Below are positions 58,821 to 61,702 of a stretch of 64,000 bases of DNA, one piece after another. The position numbers were made by a program, and so were the translations under genes. A model generated the notes under the pieces. It had not been told where the DNA came from, made no database searches, and was given only the letters and a program-made list of their open reading frames with translations. The stretch comes from Thiorhodovibrio winogradskyi (GTDB taxonomy: Bacteria > Pseudomonadota > Gammaproteobacteria > Chromatiales > Chromatiaceae): assembly GCF_036208045.1 (NCBI RefSeq), contig NZ_CP121472.1, positions 496,001-560,000 on the forward strand, written 5' to 3'. Each line of letters opens with the position of its first letter. Within the stretch, counting starts at the first letter, position 1.

Positions 58821-58986
58821 GCAGAGTCCGCATTGGAATCAGCAATTCACAATTTCGTTTTCCAGCGCCCGGTTGTTGGCCCGGTGATACACCAGATGAA
58901 AGACCCAAATTTGGCATTGCCGCACTGGAATTGACCCGGTGGCGCAGCGCCAAGGCAGAGAGATTTCGACGAGCATAACGAGGTTG

Positions 58987-59697
58987 ATGATGACTGATAC
59001 TCCCCGTCCCGCCGTGGTGCTGCTGAGCGGCGGGCTGGACTCGGCCACGCTGCTGGCCATTGCCAAGGATCAGGGCTTCGCGCCCCATGCGCTGTCCTTT
59101 CGCTACGGGCAGCGGCATCTGATTGAGCTCCAGGCGGCGGCCCGGGTGGCCGAGGCGCTTGGAGCAGCGGAGCACCGCATTGTGGCGGTCGACCTGGCCA
59201 ACTTTGGCGGTTCGGCGCTGACGGCAGACATGGAGGTACCCAAGCATCGCGATGTCGGCGAGATTGGCGCCGGCATTCCAACCACCTATGTGCCGGCGCG
59301 CAACACTGTGTTTCTATCCATGGCGCTGGCCTGGGCCGAAGTGCTGGGCGCGTCCGATCTTTTCATCGGCGTCAACGCGCTGGACTATTCGGGCTATCCC
59401 GACTGCCGACCTGAATTCATCGTCGCGTTCGAGCGCATGGCCAACCTGGCCACCCGTGCTGGTGTCGAGGGACGCGAGCGCCTGCGACTGCACACCCCGC
59501 TGATTGAACTGACCAAGGCCCAGATCATTCGCAGCGGTCTGGCGCTTGGGGTGGACTATGGGCTGACCTTCAGTTGTTACGACCCAACCGCCAACGGCCA
59601 GCCCTGCGGTGGCTGCGATGCCTGCTTGCTGCGGGCCAAGGGATTTGCCGAGGCGGGGGTGGATGACCCTGTAGCAGCGAAGGTATTCGTCCACTAG
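58987..59697 (+). CDS. queC: QueC, 7-cyano-7-deazaguanine synthase
   Basis: A 236-residue ATP-dependent enzyme that converts 7-carboxy-7-deazaguanine to preQ0, the queuosine precursor. The PP-loop is in [17 protein letters not shown], and the C-terminal zinc cysteines are in [20 protein letters not shown]. Length and order fit the family. ATG 58987 with GAGG just upstream is used; the frame is open to 58939. It begins the queC-queD-queE run. I see no preQ1 riboswitch in the 165 bases upstream. Confidence 0.95.
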
Positions 59698-59841
59698 AGG
59701 CGAGTTTCTGCTCAACGCTCCTCCAGCTGGCCCGTTGCGCGCTCGCAAGGCGAAACCGGCTGCGCTATGCGATCCTGTGCGCTTCGCCTCGCCTCGCCTG
59801 CCGTTACGTCGCAGGCACTGACTGTCAGCCGGGCCGCCACC

Positions 59842-60993
59842 ATGGATACATTGCTTTTCACCGCCGCCGAGACCTTTCATGCCGCGCGTCGACTCGCCAG
59901 CCTGCCGACGGGGCATCGCGCGACCGGGGTGCACGGGCATGGTTTTGGCGTCAAGGTCCATGCCGATCTGACCGCTCGCCGCGATGCGCGGGCGGGAACC
60001 GAAACGCGTGCCCTGGGCGATGCGCTGCGACAGGCCAGCGCGGCGCTGGATTATCAGGATCTGAACCTGCTGATCGCGGAGCCCGGCGATCTGGGTATCG
60101 CCACCTGGCTGGGCGAGCGCCTGGCCGAGTCCCTGCGCCCGGGCCGACTTGGTGCCCTGGGTTTGAGCAGCACTGCCTGGCAGGGGGTGACCAGTATTGC
60201 GGGAATGCGGCCACGCGGCTGGCGGCGCTATCGCTTCGAGGCCGCGCATCGGCTGCCGAATGTGCCTGAAGGACATCCCTGTGGGCGCATGCATGGGCAT
60301 GGCTTCGAGGTGCTGCTGCATGCCGATCTCGCGCCGGATGATGTCACGGCTCTGTCTTGTTACGACCGCCTTGATGTGGCCTGGGCGCCACTGGCGGGCC
60401 AATTGCACCATGGCTGCCTGAATGCGCTGCCGGGGCTAGAGAATCCAACCAGCGAGCTGCTGTGCCTGTGGCTGTGGCAGCGCCTTGCGCCAGAACTGGC
60501 CGGGCTGCGTCAGGTGGTGGTGCGCGAAACGCGCACGGCGGGTTGCTGTTACGACGGGCAGGGCTTTCGCATCTGGAAGGACCTGTTGTTCGAGAGCGCG
60601 CTGCGTTTTGCCGAGCTGCCCGAGGCGGACCCATGGCATGGTCTGCACGGCCACAGTTATGGACTGCGTTTGATGCTCGGCGCGCCGCTGGATGAGGTGC
60701 TGGGTTGGACGGTCGATTTCGGCGATGTCAAAGCCCTCTTTAAACCCGTGTATGCGCGGCTTGACCACCATGATCTGAGCGCCTTGCCGGGGCTGGAGCA
60801 CCCCGGAGTGGGCGAGCTGTTGCGCTGGATTGCCGGGCAGGTCGCAGGTGTGTTGCCTCAGCTTGATGGTCTGGAGCTGAACCCGACTCCGGGCCGCGGT
60901 GCTGTGTTGACTTTGTCCATGCCAGATTCCGCTCGTCTTGAGTCCAACCCGAGTGCCAGCCTGGACCTCGGTTTGGCGCTGCCATCGCTGTGA
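59842..60993 (+). CDS. queD: Triple-domain QueD/PTPS-fold 6-carboxytetrahydropterin synthase
   Basis: A 383-residue protein with three tandem PTPS/QueD folds, about three times the usual length. Domain 1 (1-115), domain 2 (about 128-245) and domain 3 (about 247-360) each keep an HGH (31-33, 151-153, 269-271). Only domain 2 has the full zinc set (H136 plus HGH), catalytic Cys147 and the pterin-anchoring Glu229; domain 1 has Arg16/Ala27 and domain 3 Leu254/Trp265 instead. The catalytic Asp-His pair is present only in domain 3 (D308-H309), while domain 2 has HH and domain 1 DY. In PTPS this triad is shared between subunits, so one composite active site is plausible. It lies between queC and queE. 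The start ATG is at 59842; no strong ribosome site is seen. Confidence 0.9.
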   Translation: MDTLLFTAAETFHAARRLASLPTGHRATGVHGHGFGVKVHADLTARRDARAGTETRALGDALRQASAALDYQDLNLLIAEPGDLGIATWLGERLAESLRPGRLGALGLSSTAWQGVTSIAGMRPRGWRRYRFEAAHRLPNVPEGHPCGRMHGHGFEVLLHADLAPDDVTALSCYDRLDVAWAPLAGQLHHGCLNALPGLENPTSELLCLWLWQRLAPELAGLRQVVVRETRTAGCCYDGQGFRIWKDLLFESALRFAELPEADPWHGLHGHSYGLRLMLGAPLDEVLGWTVDFGDVKALFKPVYARLDHHDLSALPGLEHPGVGELLRWIAGQVAGVLPQLDGLELNPTPGRGAVLTLSMPDSARLESNPSASLDLGLALPSL

Positions 60994-61051: not shown

Positions 61052-61702
61052 ATGGCATATAGCATTCACGAAATGTTCCATAGCCTGCAAGGCGAGGGCG
61101 CACGCAGTGGGCGCTCGGCGCTTTTCTGTCGCTTCGCCGGCTGCAATCTCTGGTCCGGGCGCGAGCAGGATCGCGCGCTAGCCATTTGTCGCTTCTGCGA
61201 TACCGAATTTCGTGGCACTCATGGCCGCGGTGGGGGTGTCTTTGCCTCGGCTGCTGCCCTGGCTGATCATCTGCACAGCATTTGGCAGTCGGAAACAGGC
61301 GGGGATGGACGGCCTTACATTGTCTGCACCGGCGGGGAACCGCTGCTGCAACTCGACGGGCCCCTGATGGATGCCCTGCATGCCCGCGGCAGCGAAATCG
61401 CGGTCGAGACCAATGGAACCATCGAACCGCCAGCCGGGATTGATTGGCTGTGCGTTAGCCCGAAAGCAGGAGCGCCCTTGGTGGTGACGCGCGGCGATGA
61501 GCTCAAGCTAGTATTTCCGCAGCCTGGACTGACGCCCGAGGTATTGGATGCGTTCGCGCGGCTTGAATTTCATGAGTTTTTCTTGCAACCCTGCGATGGA
61601 CCTGAACGCGCGGCCAACATCACGGCAGCCTTGACCTACTGCAAGGCTCACCCGCGCTGGCGGCTGAGCCTGCAGTTGCACAAGCTGCTGGGGATTCGTT
61701 AA
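61052..61702 (+). CDS. queE: QueE, 7-carboxy-7-deazaguanine synthase
   Basis: A 216-residue radical SAM enzyme that turns 6-carboxytetrahydropterin into 7-carboxy-7-deazaguanine. The start IHEMFHSLQGEGARSGR is diagnostic. The cluster cysteines follow the QueE spacing CX14CX2C (FAGCNLW, then ICRFCDTEF). YIVCTGGEPLLQ and AVETNGTIEPP are the following conserved strands, and LSLQLHKLLGIR is the usual C-terminus. It completes the queC-queD-queE set; spacing from queD is 58 bases. Confidence 0.95.
   Translation: MAYSIHEMFHSLQGEGARSGRSALFCRFAGCNLWSGREQDRALAICRFCDTEFRGTHGRGGGVFASAAALADHLHSIWQSETGGDGRPYIVCTGGEPLLQLDGPLMDALHARGSEIAVETNGTIEPPAGIDWLCVSPKAGAPLVVTRGDELKLVFPQPGLTPEVLDAFARLEFHEFFLQPCDGPERAANITAALTYCKAHPRWRLSLQLHKLLGIR

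Follow-up and report, generated by a model that had tools for sequence, protein, structure and literature searches.

Known PTPS and QueD architectures

In canonical QueD and PTPS enzymes, three identical T-fold subunits make up a ring, and two such rings are stacked as a dimer. The site residues of the rat and human PTPS are Cys42, Asp88, His89 and Glu107. In the 1999 work of Ploom, the PTPS site is said to be made of the Cys and Glu of one chain and the Asp-His of the next, and the 2012 work of Phillips is reportedly the main study of COG0720. The signature motifs of PTPS-II and PTPS-III (folate/biopterin) differ from the CxxxHGH motif. Tandem T-folds within one chain are found in urate oxidase and GTP cyclohydrolase IB.

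The available part of PMC7546909 describes PTPS as a dimer of trimers whose sites each lie between adjacent monomers, and its reference list includes the paper of Burgisser (1995), the title of which refers to an intersubunit catalytic triad. Within the queuosine pathway, the bimodular QueF of the Vibrio cholerae and E. coli type is presented in the accessible text of PMC5372742 as a tandem of T-folds with separated catalytic elements and an interdomain site. A three-domain QueD was not found described in the open-licence PMC literature, which does not imply its absence from print beyond that scope. Here we describe a gene that, judging from its sequence and with a probability of roughly 0.8, encodes a trimodular QueD with a single composite domain 2/domain 3 site per chain.

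Gene and domain layout

All positions refer to the window, i.e., the whole stretch of 64,000 nucleotides that was analysed. The gene and its domains are arranged as follows:

59842..60993, + strand: trimodular queD gene, 383 aa, three PTPS/QueD T-fold domains (open frame; PF01242; TIGR03367; AF2 model)
59842..60204, + strand: domain 1 (about aa 1-121), degenerate (alignments; own tree group; strands and helices in the model)
60205..60564, + strand: domain 2 (about aa 122-241), metal/Cys/Glu half-site (alignments; VIA-align to 4ntk_A)
60565..60918, + strand: domain 3 (about aa 242-359), with the Asp-His half-site and a degenerate metal/Cys site of its own (alignments; VIA-align to 4ntm_B)

The translation contains no internal stop. 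The preliminary description of this DNA had read the frame as three fused PTPS/QueD folds, and this was borne out by the AF2 model and by three stretches matching the Pfam PTPS family (PF01242; whole-protein E 6.7e-41), the sole Pfam match up to E 1, with the QueF domain PF14489 being absent. The QueD model TIGR03367 scored 110.7 bits summed over the three stretches and thus passed its curated cut-off of 89.25, and the broader TIGR00039 stayed below its own (80.7 vs 125.5). Both the Pfam and the QueD models matched best to domain 2. Two relatives reached TIGR03367 scores of 128.8 (L027) and 154.7 (L068). Chance or artefact as the source of the triple QueD was ruled out by the E value of 6.7e-41 together with 170 aligned homologues. 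An alternative in-frame ATG is located at 59767, 25 codons upstream; the start at 59842 was preferred because nearly all full-length homologue alignments begin at residues 1-6. The canonical QueD has a single T-fold domain per chain and identical subunits, whereas the window protein carries three domains in one frame.

Distribution of the catalytic residues

The catalytic places of the window protein, with their conservation among non-redundant homologues, are the following:

60247..60249, + strand: H136, first metal ligand (His of AAHRL), 136 of 136
60280..60282, + strand: C147, catalytic Cys of CxxxHGH, 136 of 136
60292..60300, + strand: H151-G-H153, metal ligands, 136 of 136
60406..60411, + strand: H189-H190, where the Asp-His of domain 2 has drifted; DH still intact in just 31 of 136
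60454..60456, + strand: E205 of PTSE, 136 of 136
60526..60528, + strand: E229 of the C-terminal ETxTAG-type motif, 136 of 136
60706..60717, + strand: W289..D292, helix-1 motif GWxxD ahead of the Asp-His, W and D in 136 of 136 (domain 3)
60763..60768, + strand: D308-H309, the Asp-His of the triad, present in all 135 readable rows

Only domain 2 possesses the complete metal set H136/H151/H153 together with C147 and E229, as had been proposed, and E205, likewise confined to this domain in the window protein, adds to the half-site; we take E205 to match the pterin-anchoring Glu107 of rat PTPS. The CGRMHGH motif of domain 2 is of the QueD kind, and the metal His, the CxxxHGH Cys and the two Glu of a QueD site are found in this one domain. 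The Asp-His pair is also present but sits in domain 3, where L254 occupies the place of the first metal His and W265 that of the Cys. The domain 3 helix preceding D308-H309 is canonical (GWTVDFGDVKALFKP), and its W289, D292, K297 and F300 are canonical solely in this domain. In domain 1, the first-metal-His and Cys places are taken by R16 and A27, the Asp-His place by D70-Y71 and the second Glu place by S110. The HGH is retained in both domain 1 (31-33) and domain 3 (269-271). A separate glutamate, E84, is kept in 96 of the 136 relatives and is replaced by Leu in the window protein.

The scan of named genomes yielded 304 relatives, and the best 80 of them were retrieved; their record titles include Chromatiaceae genera, Thiothrix, Competibacter, Burkholderiales, Methylococcaceae, Magnetococcales and other MAGs. 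The first alignment comprised 92 rows, with exact repeats removed beforehand, and was later extended with further members, many of them divergent, to 170. Redundancy filtering left 136 rows with less than 90% identity to each other (an earlier set was reduced from 114 to 93), whereby the mean pairwise identity was 0.53 and the minimum 0.31. Two loci are outside the residue counts: L227, interrupted by an assembly gap, and L238, represented only by a domain-1-like fragment.

Throughout the 136-row alignment, the H/C/H/H set of domain 2 and its E205 and E229 are invariant. The one row missing from the domain 3 Asp-His count (L089) reads X-H, with an unread residue at 308. In the domain 3 helix, K297 is as invariant as W289 and D292, and F300 is present in 135 of 136 rows; at the places corresponding to W289 in domains 1 and 2, the five most frequent residues do not include W. 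The metal/Cys loop is 16 residues long in all 136 copies of domain 2, in 108 of domain 1 and in 109 of domain 3, and many relatives have arginine-rich loops in domains 1 and 3. At the Asp-His place of domain 2, HH is the commonest pair (41 rows), and that of domain 1 mostly reads DY (112 rows), with DH in a single row.

The split of the catalytic residues between domains 2 and 3 is confirmed. The homologues had been expected to tell complementary from random loss, and they show the two half-sites in domains 2 and 3 each invariant with the other copies drifting, although the losses are not strictly complementary in the 31 rows where domain 2 retains an Asp-His as well. Hence, the statement that domain 3 alone keeps this pair is correct for the window protein but not for these relatives. 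Likewise, the claim that domain 1 keeps neither half agrees with R16, A27 and D70-Y71 but overlooks its retained HGH and the Asp-Tyr of most relatives.

In each of the 14 single-domain QueDs compared, the Cys, HGH, GWxxDF and Asp-His are found all together, so the triple has split what was formerly the content of one domain. Since Arg stands at the first metal His in 4 of these 14, the loss of this His alone does not prove that the domain 1 site is dead. Single-domain QueDs with AARRL, CARRL or ASRRL and otherwise canonical motifs were seen at L231, L233, L236 and L237, and domain 1 of most triples is similar in this respect.

Predicted structures

The AF2 model of the window protein, based on 59 of 75 possible alignment rows, had a mean pLDDT of 91.7 and a pTM of 0.90, and the AlphaFold model of a second family member (48 rows) reached 94.6 and 0.91, respectively. 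Both single-chain models are confident over residues 1-360. Single domains superimposed on E. coli QueD within 1.0-1.4 Å; VIA-align gave an rmsd of 1.4 over 119 residues for domain 2 (model range 121-240) against 4ntk_A and 1.1 over 120 for domain 3 (240-359) against 4ntm_B. The domain pairs 1-2 and 2-3 aligned with urate oxidase and GTP cyclohydrolase IB among the folds listed by VIA-align, albeit loosely, with rmsd of 4-6 Å, or 4-5 Å for urate oxidase, identity of 4-12% and Foldseek TM-scores mostly of 0.2-0.4. The domains are joined by linkers of no more than four or five residues from strand to strand (119 to 125; 237 to 242).

The two half-sites might also meet not within one polypeptide but between two, with domain 2 of one chain facing domain 3 of another by swapping or stacking. 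Residue conservation is blind to this difference, and, as far as the available part of PMC7546909 goes, PTPS sites lie between three adjacent monomers, so that a second chain may well contribute. Nevertheless, we regard the inter-chain site as quite unlikely in view of the confident single-chain models, the very short linkers and the alignment of consecutive domain pairs with tandem T-folds joined in cis. The models and linkers support the earlier reading of the protein as a single-chain pseudo-trimer, in which C147 and D308/H309 would meet within the same chain.

Loop loss in domain 3 and pairing of the domains

In 22 of the 136 rows, domain 3 lacks several residues of its own metal/Cys loop, and its HGH has lost the first His. 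Despite this loss, the domain 3 Asp-His is kept in all 22, so the pair must serve another domain. The domain 1 Asp is retained in 13 of these 22 rows compared to 102 of 114 elsewhere (Fisher p 0.001, a statistic that ignores kinship), which would fit a domain 1 pair facing the retired site of domain 3. In the arrangement we propose, each Asp-His would serve the preceding domain, i.e., domain 1 would be served by 2, domain 2 by 3 and domain 3 by 1. Invariant residues would then pair with invariant ones at the domain 2/3 interface and drifting with drifting ones at the domain 1/2 interface; with the opposite handedness, invariant residues would face drifting ones. Covariation between the domain 1 Cys place and the domain 2 Asp-His gave nothing over 92 rows (p 0.47). 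Mutual information in the 92 rows (effective number 37) placed positions 235, 250, 272, 304 and 350 in the top cluster, which was dropped as a clue to the partner of domain 2 and read as a lineage signal.

In a three-membered ring, domain 2 would have domain 1 as its other neighbour, and the Asp-Tyr of domain 1 could in principle complete the domain 2 site, leaving the domain 3 Asp-His a structural role. This Asp-Tyr (D70-Y71 in the window protein) is indeed well kept, with Asp in 115 and Tyr in 129 of 136 rows, and a purely dead interface would leave such conservation unexplained. However, the Asp is lost in 21 rows and the Tyr in 7, against the invariant catalytic residues of domain 2, and in the 22 rows with a shortened domain 3 loop it is the domain 3 pair that stays complete and the domain 1 Asp that is depleted. 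We therefore consider domain 1 a very improbable partner. Hardly credible, too, is a domain 2 working by itself or as a homotrimer contributed by three chains, domains 1 and 3 being ornamental: domain 2 is the best match to the Pfam and QueD models and has its own Asp-His in 31 copies, but 105 of 136, including that of the window, are without an intact pair, and an ornamental domain 3 would not hold an invariant Asp-His and helix motif. The composite domain 2/domain 3 site is the preferred reading.

Genomic context and other PTPS copies

The triple queD lies between two genes of the same pathway, all three on one strand:

58939..59697, + strand: queC, neighbour (PF06508 1e-72; TIGR00364 200.2 bits, over cut-off)
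61052..61702, + strand: queE of the Cx14CxxC type, neighbour (TIGR04508 331.8 bits, over cut-off)

Among the best 80 of 304 named loci, queC and/or queE were present on the same strand within flanks of up to 4 kb in 79, and the order queC-triple-queE was found in 57; where at least 3.5 kb had been fetched on both sides, queC and/or queE occurred in 52 of 53 loci. The window genome, a single contig of 5.48 Mb, also encodes tgt and a 143-aa QueF frame (QueF at C1:4734892). The genome context is that of a QueD, with queC and queE beside the gene and further queuosine pathway genes in the genome.

One further PTPS gene is present in this genome at C1:2119300 (L001, FGPAQRLHGATY). It was rejected as a second canonical QueD owing to its missing Cys and HGH, which leaves the triple as the only QueD candidate found in the genome. 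Its product (L001:1477-1911, - strand) is a PTPS-like protein of 144 aa with RLHGATY and LDYRNLDE, flanked by glycosyltransferase-like and dehydrogenase-like frames (named by eye); similar proteins were seen at least once in the same genus and at least seven times in other genomes of the same family.

Full-length triples were found in 15 of 274 genomes of the class, 14 of 299 of the phylum and 61 of 399 of one order; in two of these last 61 carriers, the triple is interrupted by an assembly gap or distributed over contigs. One genome (G743) has two full-length triple QueDs (L199, L176). In the class search at E 1e-5, none of the 15 carriers had a second match, and 129 of the 259 other genomes had a match. 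Neither the 14 phylum carriers (E 1e-30) nor the 61 order carriers (E 1e-20) gave a second single-domain QueD match, at thresholds which would miss weaker-scoring QueD kinds. The class, phylum and order searches gave strong single-domain QueDs in 33, 38 and 17 other genomes, respectively, so about six chance overlaps with triples would be expected. This pattern supports, but does not prove, a replacement of the single-domain QueD by the triple, given the relatedness of the genomes and the three carriers that the searches have in common.

A PTPS relative of other function (a member of the folate/biopterin branch or a binding protein), placed in a que operon by chance, is scarcely plausible: the QueD role is a sequence-based prediction and COG0720 paralogues are, according to the accessible part of PMC5041015, often misannotated, but the CxxxHGH, the Asp-His and both Glu are as in single-domain QueDs, the queC and/or queE neighbours recur in nearly all of the fetched loci, and neither a second single-domain QueD match in the carriers, at the thresholds used, nor one with the motifs in the own genome was detected.

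Same-genus and same-family genomes with a triple-length PTPS frame have at least 18 extra PTPS copies. Among the 18 that were read, eight are of the HGAT kind and eight have LHGHNF with Asp-Glu replacing Asp-His; L138 has HGG, and L140, from genome G029, has C-x4-HGH, FDH and a Glu. By its motifs, L140 could be a QueD-like rival beside the triple in G029, and L138 is perhaps a further QueD-like PTPS beside a triple. PTPS frames 410-432 aa long that carry the domain at the C-terminus, with HGG in place of HGH, were seen at L163:11810-13105 (- strand), L117, L118, L138 and L154; their N-terminal part has LTLQEYAIRHHLPLDL in several and gave no Pfam match in L163, the one tested. Of 42 records of the plasmid collection, none spanned 80% of the query at a single site. 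At L238:4116-4466 (genome G713), a solitary fragment of 119 aa resembles domain 1; domains 2 and 3 are missing, and the 5.2 kb read around it gave no queC or queE match. This fragment is possibly a remnant.

Origin and proposed mechanism

A tree was built from 22 triples cut into their domains plus 12 single domains (120 columns). Domains 1, 2 and 3 each formed one group (supports of 100/100, 100/99 and 85/85), and the single domains formed another (93/84). One triplication followed by descent would be the simplest account; the finer branching order is limited by the 120 columns and the long domain 1 branches. The triple of the window genome and its nearest relative (G001), above all domain 1, stands on a long branch.

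In the mechanism we propose, an ancestral queD would have been triplicated in frame, most simply once. The domain 2/domain 3 interface would have been retained as the working site, with metal, Cys147, Glu205 and Glu229 contributed by domain 2 and Asp308-His309 with its helix by domain 3, and the other two interfaces would have decayed. The three domains presumably close into a ring, and two chains would stack as a pseudo-hexamer with two sites instead of six. The predicted activity is that of QueD (6-carboxytetrahydropterin synthase) in the queuosine pathway of tRNA modification, which would turn dihydroneopterin triphosphate into 6-carboxytetrahydropterin. A more far-reaching version, in which the homotrimer has become an obligatory single-chain pseudo-trimer with one site per ring and its two retired interfaces reused, e.g., for docking QueE or QueC, whose genes are near-constant neighbours, with direct hand-over of the product, seems to us unlikely; the kept domain 1 HGH and Asp-Tyr and the arginine-rich domain 1 and 3 loops of many relatives leave some room for it.

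If the proposed reading is true, the triple QueD is a naturally occurring, widespread example of a symmetric enzyme ring turned into one chain with a single site. It would allow asking why a ring gives up two of its three sites (two per pseudo-hexamer vs six), and its interfaces could be mutated singly, which is impossible in a homotrimer. Moreover, it would be the second queuosine enzyme, after the bimodular QueF, with a site divided between tandem T-folds. For annotation, there is a warning here: each domain alone seems incomplete or dead, and the whole chain is probably active.

Comparison with known systems

The E. coli QueD (3qn0, 3qna, 4ntk, 4ntm, 4ntn) and the triple share the T-fold, the metal His set, the CxxxHGH, the Asp-His, the PTSE and ETxTAG-type Glu and the que gene context; the half-sites are divided over domains 2 and 3 in the triple and belong to identical subunits in the canonical enzyme. 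The intersubunit triad of rat and human PTPS (1gtq, 3i2b) is the founding precedent, but there in a homohexamer of biopterin synthesis. Unlike the triple, urate oxidase and GTP cyclohydrolase IB have two domains and catalyse other reactions.

Two-domain PTPS proteins (L157-L162) appear as a separate fusion, diverged and with half-sites divided as in the triple, but with the order of the halves reversed: in all 6 that were read, the Asp-His is in the first half and Cys-x4-HGH in the second. At L157:6657-7511 and L158-L162, the first half has FDHxLL or YDHCLL and the second GNCQRIAHGH. Their genomes belong to the same family as the window genome and have no triple among the matches listed, and no queC or queE match was obtained in the 13-kb stretches around them.

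The bimodular QueF shares with the triple QueD the pathway, the T-fold superfamily and the divided site; it differs in its reaction and in having two domains. According to the accessible text of PMC5372742, it has no central tunnel, in contrast to PTPS, which is built on trimer rings. It is the nearest published parallel of the trimodular QueD. Overall, the trimodular QueD is surprising in its completeness and spread, yet it has a clear precedent in QueF and uricase.
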